DNA from: Limnoperna fortunei
Taxonomy: Eukaryota > Mollusca > Bivalvia > Mytilida > Modiolidae
NCBI GenBank assembly: GCA_944474755.1
Contig: OX104112.1
Location: 54,324,774-54,388,773 of the forward strand
Reading direction: 5' to 3'
DNA: 64,000 nt
The notes beneath the pieces were generated by a model that worked only from the letters and a program-made list of their open reading frames with translations, was not told where the DNA came from and made no database searches. Both the position numbers and the translations under genes were made by a program. Positions within the stretch are counted from its first letter, which is position 1, and each line of letters begins with the position of its first letter. Below, piece by piece: positions 3,770-60,618 of the stretch.

Positions 3770-3860
3770 AGCGATCGTTAGCTTAACGTGCACGTTATCC
3801 CATTTAAATTGCATGGGATAACGAGCACGTTAATTAGCGATCGCTTTATGAAACGGCACC
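3755..3860. mobile_element. 106-bp palindromic MITE inserted in pol
   Basis: The element is almost one perfect inverted repeat. It starts GGTGCCGTTTCATAAAGC and ends with the complement GCTTTATGAAACGGCACC. It is flanked by the 3-bp direct repeat CTG (3752-3754 and 3861-3863). Deleting the element and one CTG restores the reverse transcriptase frame (ILDALGG), so this is a clean insertion. A 3-bp target duplication fits PIF/Harbinger-type elements, though CTG is not their usual TWA, so the superfamily is open. It has no coding capacity. Confidence 0.88.
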
Positions 3861-3863
3861 CTG

Positions 3864-4421
3864 GATGCACTTGGAGGGAACAATTACTTTACTGTACTAG
3901 ACATGAAAAGTGGTTACCATCAAGTAGAAGTAGAAGAGACTCATAAAGCCAGAACAGCTTTCACCGTTGGACCTTTGGGTTTTTATGAATTCAATCGTCT
4001 ACCATTTGGGTTGGTTAACAGTCCAGCAACATACCAAAAACTTATGGAAGAAATACTTGGAGACCTACACTTGGATATATGTTTTATTTATCTAGACGAC
4101 CTGATAATCTTTTCCAAGACATACGGAGAACATCTTGAGAGACTACAACGAGTACTCCAGAGACTGAGACCGAAGAAGTGTGTTTTCTTTCAAGATAAAG
4201 TAAGATATATTGGACACATAGTCTCTAAGGATGGAATTTCACCGGATCCCGACAAGATTGCCAAAGTGATAAATTGGCCTCGACCCACAACACCTGAAGA
4301 AGTGCGAAGTTTTCTCGGATTCGTTGGATACTATCGAAAGTTTGTTAAGGAATTTTCGAAAATTGCCAGACCACTAACTGATCTGATGCCTGCACCCAAA
4401 AGGTCTAGCAAACGAAGATGA
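3864..4421 (+). pseudogene. gypsy reverse transcriptase, C-terminal part
   Basis: The frame carries FTVLDMKSGYHQVEV and the catalytic box YLDD at about 4090-4101, then LGFVGYYRKFVKEF of the connection region. Compared with the usual layout, the stretch between LQRVLQRLR and PKKC is several residues short, which looks like an in-frame deletion in the palm or thumb. The frame ends at an in-frame TGA (4419-4421), after which the same frame continues into RNase H. The protein could not be made without readthrough. Confidence 0.9.
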
Positions 4422-5900
4422 AAGACTCCAACGAGTACATCATGGATTTCGGATGAAAGACAAGAAAACGCTTTCCAGACATTGAAGACCCAGCTTGCTT
4501 CTCCACCCATTCTTGGTTATCCACGTTACAGCGAACCTTTCGAGCTGCATACAGACGCATCTATGATAGGACTTGGAGCTGTCTTATATCAGGAACAAGA
4601 TGGAAATAAAAGAGTTATCGCCTATGCCAGTAGAGGTTTAAGCAAAACAGAAAGGAACTATCCAGTCCACAAATTGGAATTCCTGGCACTTAAGTGGGCA
4701 ATAACCGAGAAATTTCACGACTACTTATATGGAAACACCTTTACAGTATATACTGACAACAACCCAGTGACTTACGTTTTAACTACAGCTAAACTTGATG
4801 CCACAGGACATCGATGGATTGCAGCTTTGTCATCCTACAACTTTAATATCATCTATCGACCAGGGATTAACAACGCCGATGCAGATGCACTTTCCAGACT
4901 GCCAGAATTACTTGGACGTGGCATCACATCCAACATTGCTGTAGACTCTGTGAAAGCCATTTGTAATCTGCAACACGTAACACCCTATGTCCAGACGTTA
5001 TCGATGATAACTATGGAATCCTGCGATGACCAGCGTTTACCATCTCAGCATCTTGTTGACATCAAAGCTGAACATAGGAGAGATGATATAGTAAAGGAAT
5101 GGATTTATTGGGTAGAACAACACCAAAAACCATCAAAAGACAGACTTGAACGTATACCATGTAACAGCTGGTTTTTAAACAACTATGAGAAGTTCAAGAT
5201 ACACAATGGATCACTTTATAGGAATGTCGACATAGATGGACAACAGATACAACAGCTTGTATTACCTGAAGCTTGTATTTCAAAAGTTTTAACAGCTCTA
5301 CATGACGATATGGGTCACCAAGGACGAGATAAAACTTTATCACTGGTGAGAGACAGATTTGCATGGTACGGAATGACAAGAGATGTTGAGGAATGGATCA
5401 ATCAATGTCACAGATGTATCTGTCGCAAGTGTCCAACCAACGAAAGAGCGCCTTTGATTCACGTCGAGACGACTCAACCACTGGAACTTGTTTGTATGGA
5501 TTACCTGTCATTTGAGAAGTCGAAAGGTGGATATGAAAACATACTTGTCGTCACCGATCACTTCACTCGTTACGCTTGTGTCATTCCAACACGTAATCAG
5601 ACAGCCAAGACAACAGCTGATGCATTCTTCAATAACTTCGTTGTTTACTATGGATTACCAGAGAGGAGACACTCCGATCAAGGAGCCAACTTTGGTTCAA
5701 AGATCATTAAAGAACTGTGTAACATCACTGGTATGACCAAGTCGAGAACAACACCGTACCATCCAATGGGAAATGGAATGCCGGAAAGATTCAATAGAAC
5801 ATTACTAAGTATGTTAGGGACATTGGAAAATACTCAAAAGAAAGATTGGAAGTCCCATGTTGCCGGTTTAGTCCATGCATACAACTGCACACGACAGTAA
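4422..5900 (+). pseudogene. gypsy RNase H and integrase
   Basis: RNase H motifs appear in order: ELHTDAS, then KLEFLALKWAI, then VYTDNNPVTYV. The integrase follows with an HHCC-type finger (GHQGRDKT to CHRCICRKC) and a DDE core: VCMDY, RHSDQGANFG and PERFNRTL supply the D, D and E. This is the best preserved part, with one long open frame (4482-5900). It ends at a TAA just after YNCTRQ. Read through, the same frame continues with [17 protein letters not shown], typical of the integrase C-terminal region, so the stop is a lesion. Confidence 0.92.
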
Positions 5901-6492
5901 ACAACAGGATTCTCGCCATACTTTTTGATGTTTGGAAGACACCCGAAACTTCCAATCGACATTGCCTTCGGATTGGGAGAGAATGAGCTAGGATAAAGTG
6001 ACAACAACTAAGTATGCTGAGAACATGCAGGACAAACTACGGAAGGCCTATGATTTGGCGTCTAGAAATATTTCATCTGCACAGAAACGACAGAAGTCCG
6101 GATATGACCAACGAGTGAAAGGAGCTGTTTTGCACCCCGGAGACAGAGTCTTAGTCAAGATAGTTGCCTTCGAGGGGAAGCATAAACTTGCAGATAGGTG
6201 GGAAGAAGAACCGTACCGGATTGTTAGTCAGCCTAACGATAGAATACCCGTGTATGTGGTTCAGAGGGAGGACGGCGGAGGAAGAAAAAAGACTCTGCAT
6301 CGGAATCTTCTTTTGCCTTTAGGAAATCTGCCAATTGATGATAAACAGAGACGTCCTGCGCCCAGGCGGAATAGGAAAAGTGTGAAGCCTGTGGTACAAA
6401 CGACGAAGTCTGACATGGATAGTGAGAATAGGACCACTGAAGAGGGATCAGACGAGGAGTCGGAGCAGGAGTACACAGGACACCACTGACAG
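5901..6492 (+). pseudogene. gypsy integrase C-terminal region
   Basis: After a frame change between 5900 and 5998 the sequence encodes KRQKSGYDQRV, then GDRVLVK, then HKLADRWEEEPYRIV. These are the usual C-terminal integrase signatures, with the last corresponding to the GPY/F module. A basic and proline-rich tail follows. The 5998 start is only where the ORF opens, not a real initiation site. Confidence 0.8.
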
Positions 6493-7070
6493 TGATGTGC
6501 CAACTGTGGAAAGACGGGAGGAAGAAACTCTTGGTTTCTCTGGTGACGACCATGATGGAGCCAAGAGTAGAGATGAACAGGGCACTGGTTTAGAAAGGGA
6601 CGCTTTTCCTGTGGATAGAAAGAATTCTACAGAACCAACCCTTGTTAGTGATTTGGAACCAGTTGCAGCGACTGCTCAGGATGCAGAAGCCAGGTCTTCT
6701 GACCATGATGAGAATGAGAGTGCGCCAACTGAACCATCACTGGAGGCAGACGAACCCACCACGCCTAGAGCTCCGCCGATAGACAGACAACAGAGAAGGA
6801 GAAGGATATTACCGACACCGCCACGAGATTCGCCAGTGAAACCTCAAAGAGAAAGAAGACCACCTAAATATCTTGAGGACTATATCTAAACAAGCAACCC
6901 AGCAACACAATCCAGACTGGTTGATGAAAATCCACTGGTTAGAGTCACAAGCAGAGAAAGGACATTTTAAAGGATTAGAGAACCATATTGGACATCATGC
7001 GGTCGAGCAACTGATATGCCTTGCCAAGGATGGCACGTTCTTGTTCCGCAGGGGAGGAGAATGTAAATGA
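6422..7070 (+). pseudogene. gypsy 3' tail ORFs
   Basis: Two short overlapping frames (6422-6889 and 6873-7070) extend the pol end in other phases. The first is acidic, then rich in R and P, like the low-complexity C-terminus of mollusc gypsy polyproteins. The second ends LAKDGTFLFRRGGECK, which I take to be the last coding piece because a purine-rich stretch follows directly. Frameshifts separate all these pieces. No envelope-like features (signal peptide, transmembrane segment) are visible. Confidence 0.6.
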
Positions 7071-10866: not shown

Positions 10867-11011
10867 TATTTTTGTATTGCCTTCATTTACAATTTACGGA
10901 AAACTTTAATGTTTCTTTCGAAATCGATTTCAAAACAATAACAGTGGAGACAAGCTTACAAAATAACCTATTCAGAACAGAAACTGTACATACCAGATTA
11001 CTCGTGCAAAA

Positions 11012-12913
11012 ATGGCTGAAAAAAGCTATAAAATGGATTTTACGAACTGTAGACTTTGTCTATCCACTTTTACCAACCCAAGACTACTGCAGTGTATGCA
11101 TATATTTTGTACACCATGTTTGGAATCATTGGCTGGAGACAATACAAAACTAACATGTCCGTTATGCCGAGCAGATGAACTACTACCAATGACAGGTGTG
11201 ATGGGTATTCCAATTTATCAGTCTAAAGCCAAGCTTAAAAAGGAGGAAGAAAATACAGACTTGATGTGTCAACTGTGCGAGGAGAGAAAGTTGCCATCAG
11301 TAAAGTGTTTAGATTGTGATATTTACTTATGTTGTGATTGCCACGGATATCATGCTAAACTAAAATTGTCAAAAAATCATCAATACGAACGCTTAGAGAA
11401 TTGTTCAGGGGGCACTACAAATTCAACATTGGAATGCAGTAATCATAAGAAAGAGCTTACTTTGTTCTGTAAACCGTGCAACAAAGCAGTGTGCGCTGAT
11501 TGCGGGGAGGTTCATCATCGTCAGCATGAAATGCTATCTCTTGAATATGCCGCAGCAGTTGAACGCGATACCTTATATGCTGCAGTTGTTGGGTTGCGAT
11601 CAAAGGTGATACCAGCAATTGAAAATGTAATCGATCAAGCAAACTCTCTTGAAAACGCTCTTTACAAACAGAGCAACCAAAGAAAGCAAGAGCTAAAGAC
11701 ACATGCAACGGCGTTAAAAGAAGTCTTTAGTAGATACATTGATATGGTGATGAATTTAAACCTGATTGAAATAGAGAAACTAACAAAACATGAAATAAAG
11801 CAAATCGTAGCTTTCAAAGATGGGCTTGAAATGGACAAAATGTCGTTTGCGTCCTTGCTTAACACATCAGAAGAAATAATCAAAAGCTCCACTAATGCCA
11901 AACTTGTTAAAGAGTCGACAAATATCAAGAGAAGAATGGACAATGTCAATCGTTACGAGGGACGACAACTAGAAACACACGTGTTACAGTTTACATCTAC
12001 ACAAATTCCCGAACAACAAATAAGAAGCGCCGTAGGGAACGTAGGAATTGTTGTAGCTGACACCCTTAAATTGTCCTTTTATCAATTACCTATCCCTGAA
12101 CTGCAGATCGTGAAAAGTCTAAAGTTTAAAAATAACTTTAATACTGGATCTACTATAAAATGTGTAGTTCCTGGAAAAGAAGGAAACACATGGATTCTTC
12201 ATGATAGTTCCATAAGTAGTTACTCTTGCGATGGAAAGACAATATCGACACAGAATATTGATTCTTCTAATATATCCACACTCTTGCGTAGACAAGATGG
12301 TTCTATTTTCATTTGGATGAAAAACTACGCTCAACAATTTGACTGTGACGAAGGCGCTGCGAAAAAAGTGTATAAAGCACCGTTTGAAGTCGGAAATGCT
12401 GGCTGTTTTCTGTCCAACAACAATTTAGTGGTATTAAATCCAATCGAGAAAACATTATATGAAATAGATACTGATGGTGGAGTTCAGAGGACGGTGACTA
12501 ATGAAAACTTATCTCGCTTACTTGCATCCGAAATATTGCACATGATAGAGACAGAAGACAAAAACTGGATAATAGCTCAGGGTAACAAAGTACTTACAAT
12601 AAGACCGGATGGACGAGTTCAAAATGTTATACAGAAAGAAGATGGAATCGATAGAAGATTTCATAATTTATGCTGCGACAGTTATGGGAATATCTTTACA
12701 ATTTTCGCTCATTATGGAATAATAGACAGGAATTATCTAACCGTATGTGATATTCTGCTTTTGAATTCAGATGGAACTCTAAGTAACAAATTATATTCCC
12801 AAAACAGTACGTATAACCATGTGAATTATCCTATGCATTTGACAAAAGATGACTTTGGTAATATTTGGATCTGTATCGATCAGAGAAAAGTCGACATATT
12901 CTCGTATTTGTAG
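11012..12913 (+). CDS. TRIM-like RING/B-box protein T1, intact
   Basis: An intact single-exon gene of 633 codons, probably an E3 ubiquitin ligase. The RING is C3HC4 (C13, C16, C28, H30, C33, C36, C49, C52). B-box 1 has C86, C89, C99, C102, C107, C110, H114 and H123; B-box 2 has C142, H145, C153, C156, C161, C164, H169 and H172. Residues 180-310 are helical and charged, as expected for the dimerising coiled coil. Residues 320-633 contain repeated GNTW, DGSIFIW, YGNIF and FGNIWIC motifs, like an NHL or other beta-propeller used for substrate binding. The start context (AAAAATGGCT) is strong. An ATTAAA signal follows 142 bp after the stop. Target and pathway cannot be read from the sequence. All ligands needed for zinc binding are present. 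Confidence 0.93.
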   Translation: MAEKSYKMDFTNCRLCLSTFTNPRLLQCMHIFCTPCLESLAGDNTKLTCPLCRADELLPMTGVMGIPIYQSKAKLKKEEENTDLMCQLCEERKLPSVKCLDCDIYLCCDCHGYHAKLKLSKNHQYERLENCSGGTTNSTLECSNHKKELTLFCKPCNKAVCADCGEVHHRQHEMLSLEYAAAVERDTLYAAVVGLRSKVIPAIENVIDQANSLENALYKQSNQRKQELKTHATALKEVFSRYIDMVMNLNLIEIEKLTKHEIKQIVAFKDGLEMDKMSFASLLNTSEEIIKSSTNAKLVKESTNIKRRMDNVNRYEGRQLETHVLQFTSTQIPEQQIRSAVGNVGIVVADTLKLSFYQLPIPELQIVKSLKFKNNFNTGSTIKCVVPGKEGNTWILHDSSISSYSCDGKTISTQNIDSSNISTLLRRQDGSIFIWMKNYAQQFDCDEGAAKKVYKAPFEVGNAGCFLSNNNLVVLNPIEKTLYEIDTDGGVQRTVTNENLSRLLASEILHMIETEDKNWIIAQGNKVLTIRPDGRVQNVIQKEDGIDRRFHNLCCDSYGNIFTIFAHYGIIDRNYLTVCDILLLNSDGTLSNKLYSQNSTYNHVNYPMHLTKDDFGNIWICIDQRKVDIFSYL

Positions 12914-18188: not shown

Positions 18189-19810
18189 GAACCTATATTT
18201 TTTATTGTACTTTCTGTCAATAATCGTGCAGTTACTATTCAGTTTAGTGATTCGGGAATTAAAACAAGACATCTGAATGCATTCTTTTAAAGTTGTATAA
18301 TACAAAGATGACATGACGAAAACACCATTTGATTTTTATATTATATTAGAATTTATAATAGATCGCGTTTCTTGAGTCATTACAATTTTGTGGCACTTTT
18401 ACAGTGCTATAAAAATCCGACTGAGTCTATCTACACATTCTTAATATGAAACCATAATATAAGAATTTCTTTGAACCTTTTCGACACTAACGTACCTTTT
18501 AAGTCATTTTTCCAAACCAGAAAACTTTCGAATCATGAATAAACTCTCGCGTGATAAATGATCACTTAGGAGTTGATTCATGATTGAAAAGGTTTCGGAT
18601 TTACGCAACACAGAATTGGTAATGCATTCGACAAAATGCTAGACACCACGATTAAATCTGGAGAAATACCATTTTCTCCCTAAGAGTAAGAGTATTATAA
18701 ATCATTAATTTATGGCATTCATCATGGTTTCATACTTTTAGTAAAAGATAAAAGCTAGTCAATTTCAGGATATGGAAGGCAAAGTCAATGGAAGTAAACA
18801 TTCTTCAAGTGTATCCATCAAAAATCTTGCTCTTAGTTTGGCAAATATCTACAAGAGAAAATTAGATGCTTAAAAGTAACACTTAGTATTCGGAAATATC
18901 TCTGTAAAACGTCTGCATCTAAAACTCTTCATTTCATCCATTATTATTCGTATTTCTGTGCATTAATATTTTTGCAGAACTCACTAATGGAATTTATTTA
19001 TATGTCACAGTTGATAAGAGAATTCACGACCAGCTTTTCCAGTGTAAAACCTACTCTATAATGTGAATATGGCAACTAATCCTAACCTTGCGAAAGTCAA
19101 AGTCTGATAAAAGTTTAAATGTTACAAGTGGGGTTTAATGTATGCGGATTGTACAAATAATTTTAAAAAATAATTATGGTTTAACATACAGGATACTAAG
19201 TCTACTTATAGACAACACAAAGAATAAGTTAGTCTTGCAGATCGCTGTGTCCGGACATCGTGTCCGGACGTCGTTAAGTATAATCAATATAGATATATCT
19301 ACTTCAGTGTACATCTATATTTCGCTTAATAGTCATATAAACATGCATTACATATATTCAAACTGTATAATCAAATTTAAAGAAAACGTAGCTAAAAATC
19401 AGACAGATTTCTATGAATAATAAAGGGATGGCTGACTGGAATTTGTAAAAGATATTTGATATAAACTTTTACTCCATCATTTAAAAAATGCTTATTGTAT
19501 AATTATTCTTATTTTTATTTTCGAACACACAAAAAGACGTGTGGTGTTACATATAAGAATGTAACTACTAGTTACCCCAAACAGACAATAGATCGTCATT
19601 CCAACAGTTAATAAAAATATTATAAATTTATTATGTATAAGGCAAACCAATAAAATTTAAATGTCCTAGCAAACATATACTTTACAAATACAAATAAATT
19701 AACCACCATTTACAGAAAACGTAAAAATCAATTTTCTAAAAATAACACTGTGATTAATAAATAAAAATAACTTACTGCGTCAGACTTTTAAGCAAAGTCA
19801 TTGTACACAA
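18189..19810. repeat. T1-T2 intergenic region
   Basis: No gene found. From about 18230 to 19085 it matches 63540-64000 (with deletions there), including CCTAACCTTGCGAAA at the window end. A short tandem TGTCCGGACATCG / TGTCCGGACGTCG lies at about 19248-19273. The 92-codon frame at 19142 has no recognisable content. The last 700 bp, directly before T2, do not resemble the upstream block of T1, T3, T4 or T7. Confidence 0.55.
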
Positions 19811-21700
19811 ATGGCCGAAAAAAGCGATCAAATGGATTTTACGAACTGTAGAATTTGTCTTTCCTCTTTTACCAGCCCAAGACTATTGCAGTGTTTGCAT
19901 ATATTTTGTACACCATGTTTGGAATCATTGGCTGGGGACCATACAAAACTGACATGTCCGTTGTGTCGAACAGAGGAACTACTACCAATGACGGGAGTGA
20001 TGGGTATTCCAATTTATGACTTTAACGCAAAGCTTGAAAAAGGGGAAGAAAATACAGATTTGATTTGTCAACTGTGCGAAGAGCGAAAGTTGCCATCAGT
20101 AAAGTGTTTAGATTGTGATATTTACTTATGTTCTGATTGCCACGGATATCATGCTAAACTAAAATTGTCAAAAAATCATCAATACGAACGCTTAGAGAAT
20201 TGTTCAAGGGGCACTAAAAATTCAACACTGGAATGCAATAATCATAAGAAAGAGCTTACTTTGTTCTGTAAACCTTGCAACAAAGCAGTGTGCGCAGAGT
20301 GCGGGGAGGTTCATCATCGTCAGCATGAAATGCTCTCTCTTGAATATGCCGCAGCAGTGGAACGCGATAGCTTGTTTGCTGCAGTTGTTGGGTTGCGATC
20401 GAAGGTGATACCAGCAATTGCAAATGTAATCGATCAAGCAAATTCTGTTGAAAACGCTCTTTACAAACAGAGCAGCCAAAGAAAGCAAGACACATGCAAC
20501 GGCGTTAAAGGAAGTCTTCTGCAGATATGTAGATATGACGATGAATTTAAACCTGATTGAAACAGAAAAACTAACAAAACATGAAATAAAGCAAATCGTA
20601 GCATACAAAGATGTGCTTGAAATGGATCAAATGTCGTTTGCGTCGCTGCTTAACACAACAGAAGAAATAATCACGAGCTCTACTAATGTCCAGCTTGTCA
20701 AAGAGTCCAAAAATCTGAAGAGAAGAATGGACAATATCAATCGTTACGAGGGACGACAACTACAAACACATGTGTTACAGTTTACATCTGGAAATATTTC
20801 AGAAGAACAAATAAGAAGCGCCGTAGGGACATTAGGAATTGTTGTCGCTGACACTCCTAAATTGTCATTTCATCAATTATCCATTCCTGAACTGCAGATG
20901 GTGAAAAGTCTGAAGTTTAAAAATAACTTTATTACGGGATCTACTATAAAATGTGTAGTTCCTGGAAAAGAAGGAAACACATGGATTATTCATGATAGTT
21001 CCATAAGTAGTTACTCTTGCAATGGGGAGATAATATCGACACAGAATATTGATTCTTCTAATATATCCGCGTTCTTGCGTCGACAGGTTATATTTTCATT
21101 TGGATGAAAAACTATGCTCAACAATTTGACTGTGACGAAGGCGCTGCGGAAAAAGTGTATAAAGCATCGTTTAAAGTCGGAAATGCTGGCTGTTTTCTGT
21201 CCAACAACAATTTAGTGGTATTTAATCCAACCGAGAAAACATTCTATGAAATAGATACTGATGGTGGAGTTCAGAGGACAGTGACTAATGAAAACTTATT
21301 TCGCTTACTTGCATCCGCAATATTGCACATGATAGAGACCGAAGACAAAAACTGGATAATAGCTCAGGTTAACAAAGTACTTACAATAAGACCGGACGGA
21401 CGAGTTCAAAATGTTATACAGAAAGAAGATGGAAGCGATAGAAGATTTCAAAATTTATGCTGCGACAATTATGGCAATATCTTTACAATTTTCACTCATA
21501 TTGAAAAAATAGACAGGAGTTATTTAACCGTATCTGATATTCTGCTTTTGAATTCAGATGGAACTCTAAGTAACAAATTATATTCCCAAAATAGTTTGTG
21601 TAACTATGTGAATTCTGCTATGCATATGACAACAGATGGCTTTGGTAATATTTGGATCTGTATCAATCAGAGAAAAGTCGGCATATTCTCGTATTTGTAG
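19811..21700 (+). pseudogene. TRIM-like copy T2, frameshifted
   Basis: Closest to T1 by residue signatures. The start (ACAAATGGCC), RING and both B-boxes are intact over 249 codons. An 8-bp deletion near 20489 then ends the frame early in the coiled coil. A second deletion of 4 bp near 21088 restores the original phase for the last third (21104-21700). The predicted product is thus a RING/B-box protein without coiled coil or propeller. It could act as a truncated ligase or dominant-negative form if transcribed, but the simplest view is a young pseudogene. Its upstream sequence differs from that of T1. Confidence 0.88.
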
Positions 21701-22680: not shown

Positions 22681-24164
22681 ATGGCCGAAAAAAAGCGATA
22701 AAATGGATTTAATCGAATTGTAGAATTTGTCTATCATATTTTACTAACCCAAGACTGCTGCAGTGTTTTCATATATATTGTACGCCATGCTTAGAATCAT
22801 TGGCAGGGAACAATACCAAACTGACCTGTCCGTTGTGTCGAGCAGTTGAACTACTACCAATGACATGTGTGATGGGTATTCCAGTTTATCAGTCTAACGC
22901 CAAACTTGAAATAGGGGAAGAACATACAGCTTTTATTTGCAAAAGTTGCCATCCGCTAAGTGTTTAGATTGTAATGTTAACTTATGTAGTGATTGCTACG
23001 GATATCACGCTAAGCTAAAAATGTCAAAAAATCATCAATATGAACTTTTGGAGAATTGTCCAGGAGTAGCTAAAAAATCCACAATGGAATGCAATAATCA
23101 TAAGAAAAAGTTAACTTTGTTTTGTAAGCCGTGTAACAAAGCAGTGTGCGCTGAGTGCGTGGAGATTTATCATCGGGAGCATGAGGTACTTTCTCTAGAA
23201 TATGCCGCGGCAGTGGAACGTGATACTTTGTATGCTGCAGTTATAGGATTGCGATCAAACGTAATACCAGCTATTGAAAATGTAATAGATCAAACAAACT
23301 CTCTTGAAAACACCCTTTACAAACAGAGCAACAAAAGAAAGCAAGAGCTGAAGACACACGCAATAGCGTTAAAAGAAGTCTTCGGTAGATATGTGGATAT
23401 GGCGATAAATGTGAACTTCATTGAAATAGAAAAACTAACAAAACATGAAATAAAGCAAATTGTAGCTTACAGAGATGAGATTGAAATGGACAAAATGTCA
23501 TTGCGTACCTGCTTCACACATCAGAAAAAATAGTTAAGAGCTCCACTAATGCCCAATTTGTCAAAGATTCCACAAATTTGAAGAGAAGAATTGACAAAAT
23601 CAATCGTTACGAGGGACGACAACTAAAAACGAAAGTGTTCAAGTTCACATCTGAACAAATTCCTGAACACCAATTGAGGAGCGCCGTATGGAAAGTAGAA
23701 ATAGTTCAAGCTGACACTCTTGAATTCTCATTAAATCAATTACCTATCCCTGAACTGCAGATGTTGAAAAGTCTGAAGTTAAAAAAGACCTTTAATACAG
23801 AATCTACTATAAAATGTGTAGTTCCTGGACAAAAAGGAAACACGTGGATTCTACATGATAGTTACATAAGTAGTTACTCTTGTGATGGAAATATAATATC
23901 GACACAGAATATTGATTCTTCTAACATATCCTCGCTCTTGCACAGACAGAATGGTTCTATTTTCATTTGGATGAACAACTATGCACGACAATTTGAGCAA
24001 AGACCCGGCGGAAAAAGTGTATAAAGTTCCGTTTGAAGTCGGAAATGTTGGCTGCTTTCTGTCCAATAACAATTTAGTGGTATTTATTCTAACCGAGAAA
24101 ACGTTCTATGAAATTGATACTGATGGAGGAGTTCAGCGGACGGTGTCTAAAGAAAACTTATCAC
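22681..24164 (+). pseudogene. TRIM-like copy T3, frameshifted and 3'-truncated
   Basis: Near-identical to T4 in most parts. Lesions: an extra A in the A-run after ATGGCC, so translation ends after a few codons; one added base before the RING; a 16-bp deletion removing the start of B-box 1 (near 22940); a 1-bp deletion near 23502; and a 5-bp loss near 23998. At about 24164, within the propeller region, the homology stops and the sequence jumps into the downstream block found after T4 at 34862. The last quarter of the gene and its 3' flank are gone. Confidence 0.9.
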
Positions 24165-31417: not shown

Positions 31418-32075
31418 TACTATAAAAGTAAACATAAAATCAATTCTTGAGATTTCAAAAAATTATATTTGTTTGGGCATTTAAATTCCATTCAGAATAC
31501 TTAGTACATCTATATAGGATCAATGACGGCATTTGTATTTAACTGTTTAAATGTCGATCAATACATGTATTAGGATGGACTATAGGGATAATAAAAATTT
31601 AATCAACCGTCCCTTCACCGCCCATAGAAAACAAAACTGATTCTTGGCTACGTTTTCTGTAAATTTGATTCTAGGTTAAATTTGTTTAATGCATATATGA
31701 TTTTTAAAAGCTAACATTCTATACGTATACAGGTGTTAATGTGGTAAGTATAACGTACGAGTGTAATATAAAATCGATACTGTTTGTTTAACCCACAATT
31801 TCGTTTGAAATACCTGTACCATGTCAGGACCATTCCTGTAGATACTGAATTATTGGTTGGTTGTTGAGTTTGACGGTTTCTTGGACTTTGATTGTGGATT
31901 GTCGTTTTTGACAGTTTCCTCGGTGTTTGATATTTTGGTATTGCCTTCATTTACAATTTACGGAAAACTTTACTTTTTCTTTCGAAATCGATTTCCAAAA
32001 AATAACAGTGGAGACAAGCTTACAAAATAACTTACTCAGAACAGAAACTGTACATACCAGATTAATCGTGTCAAA
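31418..32075. promoter_or_regulatory. TRIM upstream block of T4
   Basis: The 5' flank of the intact gene T4. It holds the TATA-like AATATAAAATCGAT (near 31765), reverse element S and the conserved leader CAGTGGAGACAAGCTTACAA. It is close to the T3 upstream block. Because T1 and T4 share this flank, it is the best candidate for a functional promoter and 5' UTR. No transcript data are available. Confidence 0.4.
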
Positions 32076-33971
32076 ATGGCCGAAAAAAGCGATAAAATGG
32101 ATTTTACGAATTGTAGAATTTGTCTATCATCTTTTACTAACCCAAGACTGCTGCAGTGTTTTCATATATATTGTACGCCATGCTTAGAATCATTGGCAGG
32201 GAACAATACCAAACTGACCTGTCCGTTGTGTCGAGCAGTTGAACTACTACCAATGACAGGTGTGATGGGTATTCCAGTTTATCAGTCTAACGCCAAACTT
32301 GAAATAGGGGAAGAACATTTTATTTGCCAACTATGCGAAGAGCAAAAGTTGCCATCCGTTAAGTGTTTAGATTGTAATATGTACTTATGTAGTGATTGCT
32401 ACGGATATCACGCTAAGCTAAAAATGTCAAAAAATCATCAATATGAACATTTGGAGAATTGTTCAGGAGGAGCTAAAAAATCCACAATGGAATGCAATAA
32501 TCATAAGAAAGAGCTAACTTTGTTTTGTAAGCCGTGTAACAAAGCAGTGTGCGCTGAGTGCGTGGAGATTTATCATCGTGAGCATGAGGTACTTTCTCTT
32601 GAATATGCCGCGGCAGTGGAACGTGATACTTTGTATGCTGCAGTTATAGGATTGCGATCAAACGTAATACCAGCTATTGAAAATGTAATAGATCATGCAA
32701 ACTCTCTTGAAAACACTCTTTACAAACAGAGCAAGAAAAGAAAGCAAGAGCTGAAGACACACGCAACAGCGTTAAAAGAAGTCTTTGGTAGATATGTAGA
32801 TATGGCGATGAATTTGAACTTCATTGAAATAGAAAAACTAACAAAACATGAAATAAAGCAAATCGTAGCTTACAGAGATGAGCTTGAAATGGACAAAATG
32901 TCATTTGCGTCCCTGCTTCACACATCAGAAAAAATAGTTAAGAGCTCCACTAATGCCCAATTTGTCAAAGATTCCACAAATTTGAAGAGAAGAATTGACA
33001 AAATCAATCGTTACGAGGGACGACAACTAAAAACGAAAGTGTTAAAGTTTACATCTGAACAAATTCCTGAACACCAATTGAGGAGCGCCGTAGGGAAAGT
33101 AGAAATAGTTGAAGCTGACAACCTTGAATTCTCATTTAATCAATTACCTATCCCCGAACTGCAGATGTTGAAAAGTCTGAAGTTAAAAAAGACCTTTAAT
33201 ACACAATCTACTATAAAATGTATAGTTCCTGGACAAAAAGGAAACACGTGGATTCTACATGATAGTTACATAAGTAGTTACTCTTGTGATGGAAATATAA
33301 TATCGACACAGAATATTGATTCTTCTAACATATCCGCGCTCTTGCGCAGACAGGATGGTTCTATTTTCATTTGGATGAACAACTACGCACGACAATTTGA
33401 GTGTAGCGAAGACCCGGCGGAAAAAGTGTATAAAGTTCCGTTTGAAGTCGGAAATGCTGGCTGCTTTCTGTCCAATAACAATTTAGTGGTGTTTAATCTA
33501 ATCGAGAAAACGTTCTATGAAATTGATACTGATGGAGGAGTTCAGAGGACGGTGACTAATGAAAACTTATCACGCTTACTTGAATCCGCAATATTGCACA
33601 TGATTGAGACAGACGACAAAAACTGGATAATAGCCCAAGGCAATAAAGTAATTACAGTAAGACCGGATGGTCGAGTTCAAAATGTTATACAGAAAGAAGA
33701 TGGAAGCGATAGAAGATTTCAAGATTTATGCTGCGACAATTATGGCAATATCTTTGCAATTTTCACTTATAGTAATACATGTTACAGACCTGTTGTAATC
33801 GTATCAGATCTTCTACTTTTGAATTCAGATGGAACGCTAAGTAACAAACTATATTCTCAAAATAGTTTGTCTAAAGGTGTGAATTCTCCCATGCATGTGG
33901 CAAAAGATGGTTTTGGTAATATCTGGGTCTGTAACGATAAAGCAGAAGTCTACATATTCTCGTATTTGTAG
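32076..33971 (+). CDS. TRIM-like RING/B-box protein T4, intact
   Basis: Second intact single-exon member, 631 codons, with all zinc ligands of RING and both B-boxes. RING ligands are C13, C16, C28, H30, C33, C36, C49 and C52. Two residues fewer than T1 are present between RING and B-box 1 (GEEHFICQLC). It differs from T1 in signature positions: IYCTPC for IFCTPC, RAVE for RADE, CYGYHAKLKM for CHGYHAKLKL, and VEIYHREHEVL for GEVHHRQHEML. This defines a second subfamily. The last quarter (YSNTCYRPVVIV region) is the most divergent, as would suit a ligand-recognition surface. The likely role is E3 ubiquitin ligase, perhaps in innate immunity as for many expanded bivalve TRIM genes. That role is inference. 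Confidence 0.93.
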   Translation: MAEKSDKMDFTNCRICLSSFTNPRLLQCFHIYCTPCLESLAGNNTKLTCPLCRAVELLPMTGVMGIPVYQSNAKLEIGEEHFICQLCEEQKLPSVKCLDCNMYLCSDCYGYHAKLKMSKNHQYEHLENCSGGAKKSTMECNNHKKELTLFCKPCNKAVCAECVEIYHREHEVLSLEYAAAVERDTLYAAVIGLRSNVIPAIENVIDHANSLENTLYKQSKKRKQELKTHATALKEVFGRYVDMAMNLNFIEIEKLTKHEIKQIVAYRDELEMDKMSFASLLHTSEKIVKSSTNAQFVKDSTNLKRRIDKINRYEGRQLKTKVLKFTSEQIPEHQLRSAVGKVEIVEADNLEFSFNQLPIPELQMLKSLKLKKTFNTQSTIKCIVPGQKGNTWILHDSYISSYSCDGNIISTQNIDSSNISALLRRQDGSIFIWMNNYARQFECSEDPAEKVYKVPFEVGNAGCFLSNNNLVVFNLIEKTFYEIDTDGGVQRTVTNENLSRLLESAILHMIETDDKNWIIAQGNKVITVRPDGRVQNVIQKEDGSDRRFQDLCCDNYGNIFAIFTYSNTCYRPVVIVSDLLLLNSDGTLSNKLYSQNSLSKGVNSPMHVAKDGFGNIWVCNDKAEVYIFSYL

Positions 33972-43310: not shown

Positions 43311-45208
43311 ATGGCCGAAAAAAACGATGAAATGGATTTTACGAATTGTAGAATTTGTCTGTCATCTTTTACTAACCTAAGACTGCTGCAGTGTCTTCAT
43401 ATATATTGTACGCCATGCTTAGAATCATTGGCAGGGAACAATACAAAACTGACCTGTCCGTTGTGTCGAGCAGTTGAACTACTACCAATGACAGGTGTGA
43501 TGGGTATTCCAGTTTATTTTATCAGTCTAACGCCAAACTTGAAATAGGGGAAGAACATACAGATTTTATTTGCCAACTATGCGAAGAGCAAAAGTTGCCA
43601 TCCGTTAAGTGTTTAGATTGTGATATTTACTTATGTAGTGATTGCTACAGATATGACGCTAAGCTAAAAATGTCAAAAAAATCATCAATATGAACATTGG
43701 AGAATTGTTCAGGAGTAGCTAAAAATCCACAATGGAAAGCAATAATCATAAGAAAGAGCTAACTTTGTTTTGTAAGCCGTGTAACAAAGCAGTGTGCGCT
43801 GAGTGCGTGGAGATTTATCATCGTGAGCATGAGGTACTTTCTCTTGAAAATGCCGCGGCAGTGGAACGTGATACTTTGTATGCTGCATTTATAGGATTGC
43901 GATCAAACACAATACCAGCTATTGAAAATGTAATAGATCAAGCAAACTCTCTTGAAAACACTCTTTAAAAACAGAGCAACAAAAAAAAAGCAAGAGCTGA
44001 AGACACACGCAACAGCGTTAAAAGAAGTCTTTGGTAGATATGTAGATATGGCGATGAATTTGAACTTCATTGAAATAGAAAAACTAACAAAACATGATAT
44101 AAAGCAAATCGTAGATTACAGAGATGGGCTTGAAATGGACAAACTGTCATTTGCGTCACTGCTTCACACATCAGAAAAAATAGTTAAGAGCTCCACTAAT
44201 GCCCAACTTGTCAAAGATTCCACAAATTTGAAGAGAAGAATTGACAAAATCAATCGTTACGAGGGACGACAACTAAAAACGCACGTGTTAAAGTTTACAT
44301 CTAAACAAAGTCCTGAACATCAATTGAGGAGTGCCGTAGGGAAAGTAGAAATAATTCAAGCTGACATTCTTGAATTCTCATTTAATCAGTTACCTATCCC
44401 TGAACTGCAGATGTTGAAAAGTCTGAAGTTAAAAAAGACCTTTAATACACAATCTACTATGAAATGTGTAGTTCCTGGACAATTAGGAAACACGTGGGTT
44501 CTACATGATAGTTACATAAGTAGTTACTCTTGTGATAGAAATATAATAGCGACATAGAATATTGATTCTTCTAACATATCCGCGCTCTTGCGCAGACAGG
44601 ATGGTGCTATTTTCATTTGGATGAACAACTACGCACGACAATTTGAGTGTAGCGAAGACCCGGCGGAAAGAGTGTATAAAGTTCCGTTTGAAGTCGGAAA
44701 TGCTGGTTGCTTTCTCTCCAACAACAATTTAGTGATATTTTATCCGAGCGACAAAACGTTCTATGAAATTGATACTGATGGTGAAGTTCAAAGGGTAATG
44801 AATAATGAAACTTTATCACGCGTACTTGCGTCCGCTATATCGTATATGATACAGACAGACGGCAAAAACTAGATAATACCCCAGGGCAATAAAGTACTTA
44901 CAATAAGACCGGATGGACGAGTTCAAAATGTTATACAGAAAGAAGATGGCATCGATAGAAGATTTCAAAATTGATGCCGCGACAATTATGGCAATATCTT
45001 TGCAATGTTCACTAGTAAACAAACAAGCTGGAGTTCTGTATCAGATATTCTACTTTTGAATTCAGATGGTACGCTTAGTAACAAATTATGTTTCCAAAAT
45101 GATTTGTCTAACGGCGTGAATTCCCACATGCATATGACAAAAGATGGCTTTGGTAATATTTGGGTCTGTAACGATGACACAAAAGTCAACATATTCTCGT
45201 ATTTGTAG
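43311..45208 (+). pseudogene. TRIM-like copy T5, many lesions
   Basis: T4-type. The start and RING are good for 78 codons. Then a 5-bp duplication (TTTAT at about 43516) shifts the frame. Single-base changes near 43680 (extra A), 43697 and 43722 follow. The first Cys of B-box 2 is Ser (MESNNHKK). Stops arise at 43966-43968 (Tyr codon to TAA), near 44555 (Gln to TAG) and near 44870 (Trp to TAG). An A-run at 43981-43989 has gained one A relative to T4. It is clearly dead, and older as a pseudogene than T2 or T6. Confidence 0.92.
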
Positions 45209-50650: not shown

Positions 50651-50832
50651 TTACCGACTTGTTAGTGATAAACTTTATAACTAAGTAAATAATTCTATGA
50701 TAACATGACTGTCCTTTGTACCTCTCATAATCAATAAGGTGACTATCTGTAATATTAATACCAATTACTGAGAGCGTCAACAAACTGAATTTACTTTATT
50801 AAAGAGTTCAGTACAATTTGTGTCATAAGTTC

Positions 50833-52736
50833 ATGTTAATTAGTCGTGCCGAAAAAAAAGATCAAATGGATTTTACGAACTGTAGAATTTGTCTATCATC
50901 TTTTACAAACCCAAGACTACTGCAGTGTTTGCATATATTTTGCACACCATGTTTAGAATCTTTGGCTGGGGACAATACAAAACTGACATGTCCGTTGTGT
51001 CGAGCAGATGAACTACTACAAATTACAGGTGTGATGGGCATTCCAGTTTATCAACTTAACTCCAAGCTTGAAAGTAGGGAAGAACTTACAGATTCGATTT
51101 GTCAACTGTGCGAAGAGCGAAAGTTGCCATTCGTAAAGTGTTTAGATTGTGATATTTACTTATGTAGTGATTGCTACGGATATCACGCTAAGCTAAAAAT
51201 GTCAAAAAATCATCAATATGAACCTTTGGAGAATTGTTCAGGAGTAGCTAAAAAATCCACAATGGAATGCAATAATCATAAGAAAGAGCTAACTTTGTTT
51301 CGTAAGCCGTGTAACAAAGCAGTGTGCGCTGAGTGCGTGGAGATTTATCATCGTGAGCATGAGGTACTTTCTCTAGAATATGCCGCGGCAGTGGAACGTG
51401 ATACTTTGTATGCTGCAGTTATAGGATTGCGATCAAACATAATACCAGCTATTGAAAATGTAATAGATCAAGCAAACTCTCTTGAAAACACTCTTTACAA
51501 ACAGAGCAACAAAAAAAGCAAGAGCTTAAGACACACGCAACAGCGTTAAAAGAAGTCTTTGGTAGATATGTAGATATGGCGATGAATTTGAACTTCATTG
51601 AACTAGAAAAACTAACAAAACATGAAATAAAGCAAATCGTAGCTTACAGAGATGGGCTTGAAATGGACAAAATGTCATTTGCGTCTCTGCTTCACACGTC
51701 AGAAGAAATAGTTAAGAGCTCCACTAATGCCCAAATTGTCAAAGAGTCCACAAATTTGAAGAGAAGAATTGACAAAATCAATCGTTACGAGGGACGACAA
51801 CTATATACGCACGTGTTAAAGTTTACATCTGAACAAATTCCTGAACAACAGCGCCGTAGGGAAAGTAGAAATAGTTGGAGCTGACACTCTTGTATTCACA
51901 TTTAATCAATTACCTATCCCTGAACTGCAGATGTTGAAAAGTCTGAAGTTAAAAAAGACCTTTAATACACAATCTACTATAAAATGTATAGTTCCTGGAC
52001 AAAAAGGAAACACGTTGATTCTTCATGATAGTTACATAAATAGTTACACTTGTGATGGAAATATAATATCGACACAGAATATTGATTCTTCTAACATATC
52101 CGCGCTCTTGCGCAGACAGGATGGTTCTATTTTCATTTGGATGAACAACTACGCACGACAATTTGAGTGTGGCGAAGACCCGGCGGAAAAAGTGTATAAA
52201 GTACCATTTGAAGTCGGAAATGCTGGCTGCTTTCTGTCCAATAACAATTTAGTGGTATTTAATCTAACCGAGAAAACGTTCTATGAAATTGATACTGATG
52301 GAGGAGTTCAGAGGACGGTGACTAATGAAAACTTATCACGCTTACTTGAATCCGCAATATTGCACATGATAGAGACAGACGACAAAAACTGGATTATTGC
52401 CCAGGGCAATAAAGTAATTACAATAAGACCGGATGGTCGAGTTCAAAATGTTATACAGAAAGAAGATGGAACCGATAGAAGATTTCAAGATTTATGCTGC
52501 GACAATTATGGCAATATCTTTGCAATTTTCACTTATAGTATTACAAATTACAGATCTGTTGTAATCGTATCAGATATTCTACTTTTGAATTCAGATGGAA
52601 CGCTAAGTAACAAACTATATTCCTAAAATAGTTTGTCTAAAGGTGTAAATTTCCCATGCATGTGGCAAAAGATGGTTTTGGTAATATTTGGGTCTGTAAC
52701 GATAATGCACAAGTCAACATATTCTCTTATTTGTAG
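50833..52736 (+). pseudogene. TRIM-like copy T6, chimeric and frameshifted
   Basis: The usual start ATGGCC is changed to GTGCC (50846). The nearest in-frame ATG is 50833, adding a few new residues. RING and B-box 1 are intact and of T1 type (IFCTPC, RADE, EERKLP, CDIYLCSDC); from YGYHAKLKM on it is T4-type. B-box 2 has Arg for the third ligand (LFRKPC). A 1-bp loss in the A-run at 51511-51517 ends the frame after about 238 codons. Further damage: an 8-bp deletion near 51848 and a TAA at about 52624. The upstream DNA differs from the T1/T3/T4 block. Confidence 0.9.
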
Positions 52737-56835: not shown

Positions 56836-57517
56836 TTTTTATTTTTTAATATCATCATTTGGTTTATACCACATATATCACATGATATTTATGGTATTGT
56901 ATAATAGTGTCGCATACCAACATATATCTAGGATCTTAACATTGGTTACAAGTGAATTATCAGATTTCACAAAAAATTCATAATTTAACAATCGAGATTG
57001 TGGAAATGCAATAATCTTGAAGTACTAATGTAAATATTCTTTTTCTCTAATTAAAAACGTGGTAATTTAAAGTAAAGCTGTTTCTCTAATTAAAAAGTAG
57101 TAATTTACCGAAATGAACTACAAATTCTCCAAACATCAAATTTACGGTCTGTTGGTTTGTTAAAGAGTTAATAAGTGTTACAAATGCATCACTTGCAACA
57201 TATGCTATATAGAAGAAAATATTAAAACAATACATTCTGCGATGAAAAATACGATACAGAAACATACAAGTATTTTCTAAACAAGGCTGAATTGTATCGT
57301 TTCATATAAGAAATCGAAATTTTTCTTCTGCATTAAGGTTTAACAACTATATATAAATATACATAAATACCGTAAACAAGTAATAACATATTGAGCTTGA
57401 ATTTTCTCACTCCAACTGAACTTAAAACTTCTATATATTGTTTCCCCGTCCGCCACCCGCAGACGCGCTGTTACTTGGATTTGCTCAAATATTCCAACAA
57501 AATGTTATCAAAATTAC
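56836..57517. other. End of the T6 downstream block
   Basis: No gene. Matches 37430-37760 until about 57355, then about 160 bp of unmatched sequence reaches the foldback element at 57518. Confidence 0.45.
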
Positions 57518-57736
57518 CAAGGTGACAAATTCATTACGCCAGACGCGCGTTTATTTTGAACTACCTGTATTGTGTATTTACACGATCCCAGTGGACTTAT
57601 ATTATTCCATCTCCCAATGAAGAATACTATTATTCCATCTCCCAATGAAGAATATCTTAAACATTTAGAGTTAAACGCCACTGATGAATCTTGAATAGAC
57701 GAAACGCGCGTCTGGCGTAATGAAGTTGTCACCTTG
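57518..57736. mobile_element. Foldback element with hammerhead ends
   Basis: 219 bp with 35-bp inverted ends: left CAAGGTGACAAATTCATTAC then GCCAGACGCGCGTTT, right the complement with few mismatches. The interior has a direct repeat TATTATTCCATCTCCCAATG (57600 and 57630). The right TIR and adjoining bases make a hammerhead fold (next entry); the left TIR keeps only the stem I and III part. To the right the sequence continues at once as ATTGTGATCAG, as at 9965, so the right edge is exact. The element lies on a unit junction. Confidence 0.8.
57675..57718 (+). ncRNA. Hammerhead ribozyme, type I-like
   Basis: The plus strand has all core parts: stem I ACGCCA (57675-57680) pairs with TGGCGT (57713-57718); core CTGATGA (57681-57687); stem II TCT/AGA around TGAAT; GAAA (57701-57704); stem III ACG/CGU with a two-base loop (57704-57711); cleavage site GTC, cut after C57712. 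The very short palindromic stem III suggests action as a dimer, as known for hammerheads of Penelope-like elements and animal retrozymes. One flaw: the first stem II pair is A57688-C57700 instead of G-C, which should weaken cleavage. Confidence 0.8.
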
Positions 57737-58768
57737 ATTGTGATCAGAGTATAAATATTTTTCTACATCCTGTAAGCACGGTACAGAAAGAATCTTAAAG
57801 ACAAATAATGTTATTATTTCTGCGCATTTTCGTTAACGTTATTGTTTCGTAATTCTTTTATAATCATAGGTTTTTTGGATAGACTCAAAGGTGACTTTAA
57901 AAGTAAAAATGCAATTTCAGAGTTTTGAAGAATAAGGAATATGTTTCTTATGTGCAACTTAATCACATCTGCCGTTTTTCTTGGGTAATAGGAATAAGGT
58001 ACTGTAAAGACATGTTTGTTTGCGCAAACTACATCTTTGTTAAAATAAAATATCTATTAGCCCCATAAAAATATTTAAATTTCCTTTTGAAACATTAGAT
58101 TATTTGATCCCCTCGCTTAGTAGAATGTACTATAAAGTAAACATAAAATCGATTCTTAAGATTTCAAAAAAACTATATTTGCTTGGTTCTATTGGTTTAC
58201 AGAATACATAGTACATCAATGACGGCACTTGTATTTGACTGTTTAAATGTCGATCAATATTAGGATAGACTATTATAAAAGATAATAAAAATTTAATCAA
58301 CCAACCCTTCACCGCCCATAGAAAACAAAACTGATTCTTGACTACGTTTTCTGTAAATTTGATTCTAGGTTAAATTTGTTTAATGCATGTATGACTTTTA
58401 AAAGCTAAAATATTCTATACGTATACAAATGTTTATGTGGTAAGTATAACGTACGAAAGTAACATAAACTGGATACTGTTTGTTTAACCCACAATTTCTT
58501 TTGAAATACCTGTACCATGTCAGGACCATTCCTGTAGTTACTAAATTTTTGGTTGTTGAGTTTGACGGTTTCTCGGACTTGGATTGTGGATTGTCGTTTT
58601 TGACAGTTCCTCGGTGTTCGGTATTTTGGTATTGCCTTCATTTACAATTTACGGAAAACTTTAATTTTCTTTCGAAATCGATTTCCAAATAATAACAGTG
58701 GAGACAAGCTTACAAAATAATAACTTAGTCAGAACAGAAACTGTACATACCAGATTAATCGTGTAAAA
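57737..58768. repeat. Spacer and TRIM upstream block of T7
   Basis: 57737-58130 matches 9965-10375, and 58134 onward the TRIM upstream block, with reverse element S at 58482-58621. The TATA-like box is altered (AACATAAACTGG). No gene. Confidence 0.65.
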
Positions 58769-60618
58769 ATAGCCGAAAAAAAGCGATAAAATGGATTTTA
58801 CGAATTGTAGAATTTGTCTATCATCTTTTACTAGCCCAAGACTGCTGCAGTGTTTTCATATATATTGTACGCCATGCTTAGAATCATTTGCAAGGAACAA
58901 TACCAAACTGACATGTCCGTTGTGTCGAGCAGTTGAACTACTACCAATGACAGGTGTGATGGGTATTCCAGTTTATCAGTCTAACGCCAAACTTGAAATA
59001 GGGGAAGACATACATATTTTATTTGTCAACTAAGAGCAAAAGTTGCCATCCGTGAAGTGTCTAGATTGTGATGCTTACTTATGTAGTGATTGCCACGCGT
59101 ATCATTCCAAGCTCAAAATGTCAAACAGCCATCACTATGAACGTTTTGAAAACAGTAGAGGAGGTGCCGAAGGCTCCACACTGGAATGCAATAATCATAA
59201 TAAGGAGCTTACTTTGTTCTATAAACCGTTCAATCAACCAGTGTGCGCTAGTGCGGAGAGGTTTATCATTGGGCATGAAGTTCTTTCTCTAGAATATGCC
59301 ACGACAGTTGAACGGGATACTCTGTATGCTGCAGTTATCGGGTTGCGATCAAATGTGATACCAGCTATTGAAAATGTAATAGATAATGCAAACACGCATG
59401 AAAACAATCTGTACAAACAAATTAGCCAAAGAAATCAAGAGCTGAAGAAACATGCAACGGCGCTAAGGCAGTCTTTACTAGATACGTAGATATCGCGATG
59501 AATTCAAACTTGATTGAAATAGAAAAGCTAGCAAGACATGAAATAAAGCAAATCGTCGCTTACAAAGATGCACTTGAAATGGACAAAATGTCGTTTGCGT
59601 CCATGCTTCACAGATTAGAAGAAATCATCAAGAGCTCTACTAATGCCCAGCTTGTTAAAGAGTCCACAAATCTGACAAGAGGAATGGACACTATTAAAAG
59701 TTACAAGGGACGACAACTCCAAACACACGTGTTACAGTTTACATTCGGACAAATTAATGAACAACAAATAAAAAGAGCCGTAGGGAGCATAGGAATTATT
59801 GTTGCTGACACTTTTAAATTGTCATTTCATCATTTACCCATCCCTGAACTGCAGATGGTGAAAAGTCTTACGTTAAAAAACACAAGTAATACGGGATCTT
59901 CTATAAAAAGTGTAGCTGCCGGAAAAGAAGGAAATCCGTGGATTCTTCATGATAGATACATTAGTAGTTACTCCTGTGATGGAAACACTTAATCGAAACA
60001 ACAGATCGATTATGCCAATATATCGTTGCTCTTGCGTAGACAGGACGGCTCCGTTTTCTGTTGGATGAAGAACTACGCACAACAATTTGACTGTGTATAA
60101 AGTGCCATTTGAAGGTGGAAATGCTGCCTGCTTTTTGTCCAACGATGACCTAGTGGTATTTAATCCAACCGAAAAAACGTTCTTTGAAATTGATGCTGAT
60201 GGTGGAGTTCAGAGAACGGTAAACAATGAAAATTGCACATGATAGAAACAGGCAACAAAAACTGGATAATAGCCCAGGACAATAAAGTAATTACAATAAG
60301 ACCGGACGGACAAGTTCAAAATGTGATACCACGTATATAGAGTGCAGATGGAAACAATAAAGATTTCAAAATTTATGCTGCGACAATTATTGCAATATCT
60401 TTGCAATTTGCACGCAAAAGAATCAAATGAACAAAAATTATGAGATCATATCAGATATTCTACCTTTAAATTTAGATGGAACCATATGTAACAACTTGTT
60501 TTCCAAAAAGGATATTTCTAGAGGCGTTGAGTGTCCCATGCATATGACAAAAGATGACCTTGGTTATATTTGGGTCTGTAACGATTGGACACAAGTCAAC
60601 ATATTCTCTTACTTGTAG
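58769..60618 (+). pseudogene. TRIM-like copy T7, most decayed of the seven
   Basis: The start is ATA (58769-58771) and the A-run behind it has an extra A; the RING is readable from an internal ATG at 58791 and keeps all eight ligands. A 5-bp loss near 59032 removes the frame before B-box 1. In B-box 2, ligands are replaced (LFYKPFNQ) and a base is lost. Further frameshifts lie near 59465, 59990, 60095 and 60225. The RING part is T4-like, while later parts (RLQ-free HVLQFTFGQI, MVKSL) resemble T1, suggesting a recombinant. The final FSYL codons and stop are kept. Confidence 0.88.

Follow-up and report, generated by a model that had tools for sequence, protein, structure and literature searches.

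The locus at 57518–57736 raises the question of whether a hammerhead ribozyme has been built into the terminal inverted repeats (TIRs) of a foldback element, as a first-pass annotation of the window (here, the whole 64-kb stretch of DNA that was analysed) had proposed, or whether the ribozyme and the inverted repeat around it have another origin.

The window ribozyme and its inverted repeat

Rfam identified a single match at the gathering threshold in the 64-kb window. It is a type I hammerhead to which the RF00163 model aligned over its full length, scoring 36.0 bits where the gathering cut-off is 34 (E = 2.3e-5). The complete hammerhead that had been described at the right end is real, its letters are as stated (ACGCCA-CTGATGA-ATCTTGAATAGAC-GAAA-CGCGCGTC-TGGCGT), and cleavage is predicted 3′ of position 57712. 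Folded by itself as a single strand, the window ribozyme did not reach significance (z = −1.35), and our call is therefore based on the covariance-model match together with the copies in the genome. In viral contigs, the longer ribozyme pattern had no match and its 20-mer had one; the 20-mer also had one match in the genome contigs of the prokaryote collections searched.

The A-C mismatch reported at the first stem II pair was borne out as well. Among the first 100 of the 136 genome copies with the window ribozyme's loop spelling, the first base of stem II is G in 91, A in four (including the window copy), C in three and T in two. Most listed copies thus have the G-C pair, in agreement with the suggestion that the window copy is a decaying member of its family.

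Using the 551-bp array monomer, numbered from the cleavage site, as a yardstick, we assigned both sides of the locus to pieces of the same retrozyme unit:

57675–57718, plus strand: type I hammerhead ribozyme, match to Rfam RF00163 (Hammerhead_1)
57552–57738, plus strand: right arm, retrozyme monomer piece, unit 391–551 then 1–26; 187 nt, ungapped, 94.7% identity to the 551-bp array unit
57356–57552, minus strand: left arm, second monomer piece, unit 541–551 then 1–193; 81.5% to the 551-bp unit
57518–57552: left copy of the 35-bp inverted repeat, unit 541–551 and 1–24 of the minus arm
57702–57736: right copy of the 35-bp inverted repeat, unit 541–551 and 1–24 of the plus arm
57549–57553: head-to-head joint of the arms, where the alignments end; base 57552 lies in both alignments
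57600–57654, plus strand: two 27-nt direct repeats; with a similar duplication in the aligned unit, a regular part of the retrozyme

The right arm is truncated and has no (AT)n at its end. The left arm ends in an AT-rich stretch and lacks the catalytic core, retaining only the stem III, cleavage-site and stem I 3′ part of the hammerhead, as had been noted. A ribozyme on both ends is thereby ruled out, and the idea that each end could process transcripts from opposite strands fails at this locus.

The inverted ends are present as described: two copies of 35 nt, 97% complementary and spaced by 149 nt, which is what a foldback or MITE-like DNA element with the hammerhead in its right TIR would show. 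However, the repeat corresponds to the unit part common to two truncated arms that overlap and are joined at 57552, and for this reason it does not represent the TIRs of a foldback element; the locus consists of two truncated retrozyme monomers joined head-to-head. A BLAST search with 57400–57850 gave 274 matches (best 40 of 2383 candidates scored), and among the matches listed only the window's own spans 57552, the others matching the two sides separately and in opposite orientations. The segment 57400–57552 (query 1–153) is 98% identical to C4:24999334–24999485 on the other strand, and the right-arm part matches next to it at 96%. None of the other copies that we read has the 35-bp repeat; they are monomers, either in tandem or alone, and 3′ ends elsewhere cluster at unit positions 295 and 393, often in (AT)n. 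By eye, no target duplication was seen at the window copy; within (AT)n, such duplications would be invisible. Among the copies read, we found no set of several with inverted repeats at both ends, and the TIR or foldback transposon was rejected as a candidate; we regard this reading as extremely improbable. Taken alone, the window copy is an ordinary worn insertion.

Two further features of the window were recognised by eye. Frames resembling protease, RT, RNase H and integrase at 2513–6889 probably belong to an LTR element, judging from the translation, and a tandem cluster of TRIM-like genes (RING/B-box), including broken copies, occupies the following positions:

10967–12913
19754–21700
22910–24024
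32031–33971
43937–44557
50803–52626
59034–59992

The retrozyme family in the genome

We searched 1.335 Gb of genome sequence in 285 contigs. The ribozyme spelling that begins with CTGATGAGTCTTAANTAGAC occurs at 3256 exact sites (reversed control, 0), which together with the copies of the window's loop spelling makes about 3390 ribozyme sites, and Rfam returned 56 gathering-level hammerhead matches in eight loci. The monomers are 509–576 bp long, mostly 510 or 548–553 bp, and are arranged in tandem arrays. The unit has a G+C content of 0.338, and its longest stop-free stretch is 56 aa in the doubled unit. The type I hammerhead, short tandem monomers, low G+C and lack of an ORF identify the family as an animal non-LTR retrozyme; with no ORF in the unit, the RT and GIY-YIG endonuclease that define Penelope-like elements are absent from it.

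The first 20 regions were picked from BLAST matches and do not constitute a random sample; they show tandem arrays as well as shorter copies. As a layout-blind sample, we used the first 100 of the 3256 exact sites, which lie in C1:4.0–44.1 Mb and form 35 clusters. More than one site is present in 18 of these clusters, and strand changes occur in eight. Sequence was read for 18 of the 35 clusters, 15 in 17 regions and three as small stretches (L048, L049 and L050); three of the 17 regions were taken by a long array at 44 Mb, of which one was pure flank and the middle was unread. The array at C1:44128236–44148379 (L045, L046) runs in one direction with at least 35 ribozyme sites at 553-bp spacing, and the nine units compared in it are identical.

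Head-to-head arrays and their two 3′ ends

In the sampled clusters (eight strand changes among the first 100 listed sites), arms are joined head-to-head in seven cases and tail-to-tail in one, and in the lone tail-to-tail case (AT)n and another repeat keep the retrozyme pieces apart. Two complex loci (L018 and L042) contain small 3′-to-3′ foldbacks at site 295 as well. The first-pass annotation had considered that direct tandem copies elsewhere, together with an inversion unique to this locus, would indicate a chance head-to-head junction. Tandem copies do exist, and the exact junction was found only here among the matches listed. However, head-to-head joining recurs elsewhere, so that the window inversion is not mere chance, and the attention that the annotation had asked for the inverted layout was well placed.

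To describe the ends of these arrays, we relied on a script that called 63 outward 3′ ends in L011–L050, one of them counted twice in overlapping loci. The ends fall into broad windows, especially round site 393: 23 lie at 284–312 (site 295), 24 at 340–402 (site 393) and 15 elsewhere, some of the latter being breaks of the alignment chain, and one is an N gap. Of the 47 canonical 3′ ends, 32 are followed by at least (AT)5, as is none of the 15 other ends, and such a tract precedes six of 61 5′ ends; the 15 canonical ends that lack it and the breadth of the windows count against a two-ended insertion model. Both kinds of end read TAGAC, a few bases and TATATA, and the interval between them is 98 nt. 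The exact end strings followed by (AT)n occur at 459 places for site 295 and at 80 for site 393, whose string misses the 510-bp subfamily, and reversed controls gave 0.

The fetched loci contain 13 head-to-head arrays, including the window copy, plus the complex locus L018. Seven arrays have unbroken sequence across the junction and a canonical site at each 3′ end, and each of the seven combines one 295 end with one 393 end, a pairing with a chance of ~0.008 if ends were independent:

C7:70.57 Mb
C14:18.13 Mb
C2:92.97 Mb
C1:17.85 Mb, with the 393 end in a diverged spelling
C1:41.19 Mb
C1:13.98 Mb
C1:15.18 Mb, whose 393 end lies 15 nt beyond the sequence read and was located by the exact-string search

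The arrays at C1:33.27 Mb (24-bp left arm) and C6:13.57 Mb (N gap in the centre) agree weakly with this pairing. We excluded as uninformative C13:69.00 Mb (N gap), C1:30.41 Mb (left arm truncated at 67), C1:26.94 Mb (right end outside the locus) and the window copy, which ends at neither 295 nor 393; the N gaps of the C6 and C13 arrays lie in the centre or second arm. Among the exact end strings listed from C1 to C3:60.2 Mb (100 of 459 for site 295 and 13 of 80 for site 393), outward pairs within 3 kb comprise five 295/393 pairs, one 295/295 pair and no 393/393 pair. The 295/295 pair, at C1:60.026 Mb, counts against a strict two-end rule. Penelope-type integration is expected to leave copies joined head-to-head whose two arms differ in which of two 3′ ends they carry, and the retrozyme shows both features.

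The junctions themselves are scattered over unit positions. Microhomology of 2–4 nt was found by script at five of nine junctions, the other four showing gaps or mismatches without microhomology (one, in C6, being an N gap), and BLAST overlap identified 3 nt at a sixth. Junction microhomology is also a feature of LINE twin priming. Four arrays have full units on both sides of the junction, and in three of them the arms are near-identical: between-arm substitutions are 1.18 in C6, 1.75 in C7 and 0.87 in C2, against 4.3, 4.3 and 4.9, respectively, to the nearest other array. The simple reading of this near-identity is one template for both arms. The exception is C14, where the left arm mixes two subfamilies, which suggests template switching.

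These observations bear on whether ordinary tandem retrozymes were rearranged after insertion, by inversion within an array, sister-chromatid fusion or foldback replication at AT cruciforms. It is general knowledge that (AT)n tracts are prone to rearrangement, and the complex loci (L018, L035 and L042), as well as flanks that are themselves inverted, would fit such a history. However, inversion within an array yields both head-to-head and tail-to-tail joints, whereas seven of eight joints are head-to-head; chromatid fusion yields identical ends, whereas two different kinds were found in 7/7 arrays; and the Penelope-like copies of this genome behave alike. We therefore consider later rearrangement improbable.

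Array flanks that are inverted copies of each other were seen at L045/L046 (C1:44.128–44.148 Mb) and at L016/L017 (C14), over 45 bp and about 800 bp, the C14 flanks being copies of a 447-bp repeat family. Palindromic targets or neighbours can thus occur at (AT)n.

A second repeat family with the same layout

At (AT)n, copies of the 447-bp tandem repeat likewise lie in tandem and head-to-head, and they too have two alternative 3′ ends, TAGACG(TATATA) at 97 and TTAGACGTTTG(TATATA) at 186. Copies were located at:

L016:1–937
L017:2017–3177
L025:1889–2633
L022:2950–4268
L032:7995–8551
L045
L050

In the head-to-head cases with readable ends (L032, L045, which has an internal jump, and L050), one of each end is present in 3/3; a fourth case, L012, was left out of this tally. 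We call the repeat tRNA-like for letters resembling A and B boxes that were recognised by eye; neither ARAGORN nor Rfam identified a tRNA in it, and no hammerhead was recognised. A third repeat with tRNA-like letters ends in ..ATTAGACACT(TATATA) and has inverted copies at L015:1931–3170 and L043:2103–2312.

Because the 447-bp repeat shows the two-end layout without a hammerhead, the ribozyme is not needed for that layout. This would suit a Penelope-type two-ended insertion on a linear concatemeric transcript, with no circle and no part for the ribozyme in insertion, as would the report that ribozyme mutants were without effect on insertion of Penelope RNA in vitro (PMC11167929). On the other hand, the 17 near-identical units across both C2 arms (0.9 substitutions) are easier to obtain from one circle, and mussel retrozyme RNA is described in PMC7229834 as largely circular. 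We regard the linear template as rather unlikely.

Penelope-like elements of this genome

A search for the GIY-YIG endonuclease gave 149 matches (best 150 of 1068 candidates scored), several of them within open frames of 700–780 aa. The one frame read (L053, which contains an N run) combines RVT_1 with GIY-YIG; no sequence relative of the Penelope-like protein piece was found in the PDB. Among the 149 matches scored, neighbours within 8 kb comprise 14 head-to-head, no tail-to-tail and five same-strand pairs, so that opposite-strand neighbours are head-to-head in 14/14. The region 3′ of the L053 frame leads into (TA)16. With this 3′ region as query, we obtained 40 long matches (best 40 of 134 candidates scored), of which 14 pass position 174 into (TA)n, reaching 180–200, and 26 stop at 165–174. 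An AT tract follows 14–35 bp on in seven of these 26, and the other 19 have no listed AT tract nearby; as some of the 26 are internal joints between tandem copies, a stop at 174 alone is no proof of a tail. The head-to-head pairs of Penelope family B have one end of each kind in 8/8, with the match reaching only 180 in one of them (C10).

Other comparisons separate the two kinds of element. The Penelope tail measures ~20–41 nt here against the retrozyme interval of 98 nt, which counts against shared machinery. The Penelope 3′ region read has no similarity to the retrozyme (best E = 0.09) and hence no shared sequence at the start of reverse transcription, the TAGAC motif is absent from it, and an Rfam search of the two Penelope 3′ regions that were read gave no hammerhead match.

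At C11:18713390–18731209, five Penelope 3′ regions lie on one strand at 3.67-kb spacing, at least four of them with endonuclease matches, and the array closes with one head-to-head copy that ends in (TA)16.

The mobilising enzyme could instead be a LINE-type RT with a (TA)n target and ordinary twin priming, with no Penelope-like element involved. LINE twin priming is not known to involve a pair of fixed 3′ ends or tandem arms. It does yield inverted copies, as described in PMC2837659, and the absence of TAGAC..(TA)n from the Penelope end read also speaks for a LINE. Against it, the retrozyme and the Penelope-like copies, the two kinds of element compared, alike pair two types of end, lie head-to-head and end in (TA)n. 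A LINE as the source of the enzyme appears unlikely.

A proposed origin of the arrays

The array architecture, the end positions, the orientation bias, the two ends per array, the near-identity of arms and the like pattern in Penelope-like elements lead us to infer a circular template, a Penelope-like enzyme and simultaneous priming. On this model, tandem retrozyme DNA would be transcribed, and hammerheads would cut the RNA into monomers that close into circles; circularisation of the monomers was demonstrated for Mytilus according to PMC7229834. A Penelope-like RT/GIY-YIG endonuclease would break a (TA)n microsatellite, and both 3′ ends of the break, which are identical in sequence, would each serve as a primer for copying the RNA into cDNA, one starting at unit 295 and the other at 393, both of which read TAGAC..TATATA. 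Each cDNA may circle the template several times. The two cDNAs would meet head-to-head at a random point and be joined, often via short microhomology, giving mirror-image tandem arrays whose small truncated products resemble foldback elements. We propose that the window copy is such a case, and that it is probably a small, truncated, ageing, non-autonomous animal retrozyme insertion made by two-ended Penelope-type priming at (TA)n on ribozyme RNA.

A wider version of this proposal is possible, and we hold it more tentatively: one (TA)n break would prime twice on one circular ribozyme RNA and produce the mirror array in one event, and in addition the two-site rule would be common to unrelated passengers (hammerhead retrozymes and the 447-bp repeat), which would then belong to one non-autonomous class whose hallmark is the TAGAC..(TA)n end and not the ribozyme. 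A strict two-end rule is not predicted by PMC11167929, where start sites did not differ between strands.

If correct, the model would explain in simple terms how palindromic satellite-like arrays arise. An insertion scar common to the retrozyme and the Penelope-like elements of one genome makes the mobilisation question testable, and the window illustrates that a lone truncated retrozyme copy can mimic a ribozyme inside a TIR element.

Comparison with known systems

Retrozymes, the anatomy of Penelope-like elements and the suggested link between them are already known, the link being unproven. Penelope-like elements have been named strong candidates for the mobilisation of retrozymes on the basis of shared type I hammerheads, tandem copies and co-occurrence (PMC7761336, PMC7229834), and a curation guide repeats this (PMC8969392). 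Among the open-licence papers searched, we found none that described retrozymes arrayed head-to-head or the two ends of such arrays, and the main text of PMC7229834 makes no mention of head-to-head arrays, two 3′ ends or (AT)n targets. The array architecture described here gives structural support to the proposed link.

The family resembles the animal non-LTR retrozymes of Cervera and de la Pena 2020 (PMC7229834), reported from mussel, in its type I hammerhead, tandem monomers, low G+C, lack of an ORF and thousands of copies. The present host is probably a mytilid mussel too, to judge by its roughly 14 large contigs, the TRIM/RING cluster and the ribozyme. Its unit, mostly 510 or 548–553 bp, is larger than the about 350–390 bp given there for Mytilus galloprovincialis, the size range of such retrozyme circles being 150 to >1000 nt in the same source.

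The arrays also resemble endonuclease-bearing Penelope-like elements. Those of Adineta vaga, as described in PMC3846280, have tandem and frequent head-to-head copies with an optional short tail on one inverted end. Poseidon of Anolis shares the AT-rich targets, and hammerhead motifs are present in Anolis and others (PMC11167929). In vitro, the Penelope-like protein cuts and extends both strands and prefers AT-rich DNA, and it begins reverse transcription at two neighbouring internal positions, which delimit the "tail" (PMC11167929). Unlike Penelope-like elements, the retrozyme encodes no protein, both of its arms can be long multimers, and its two ends lie 98 nt apart, whereas the published interval in Penelope-like elements is about 30–40.
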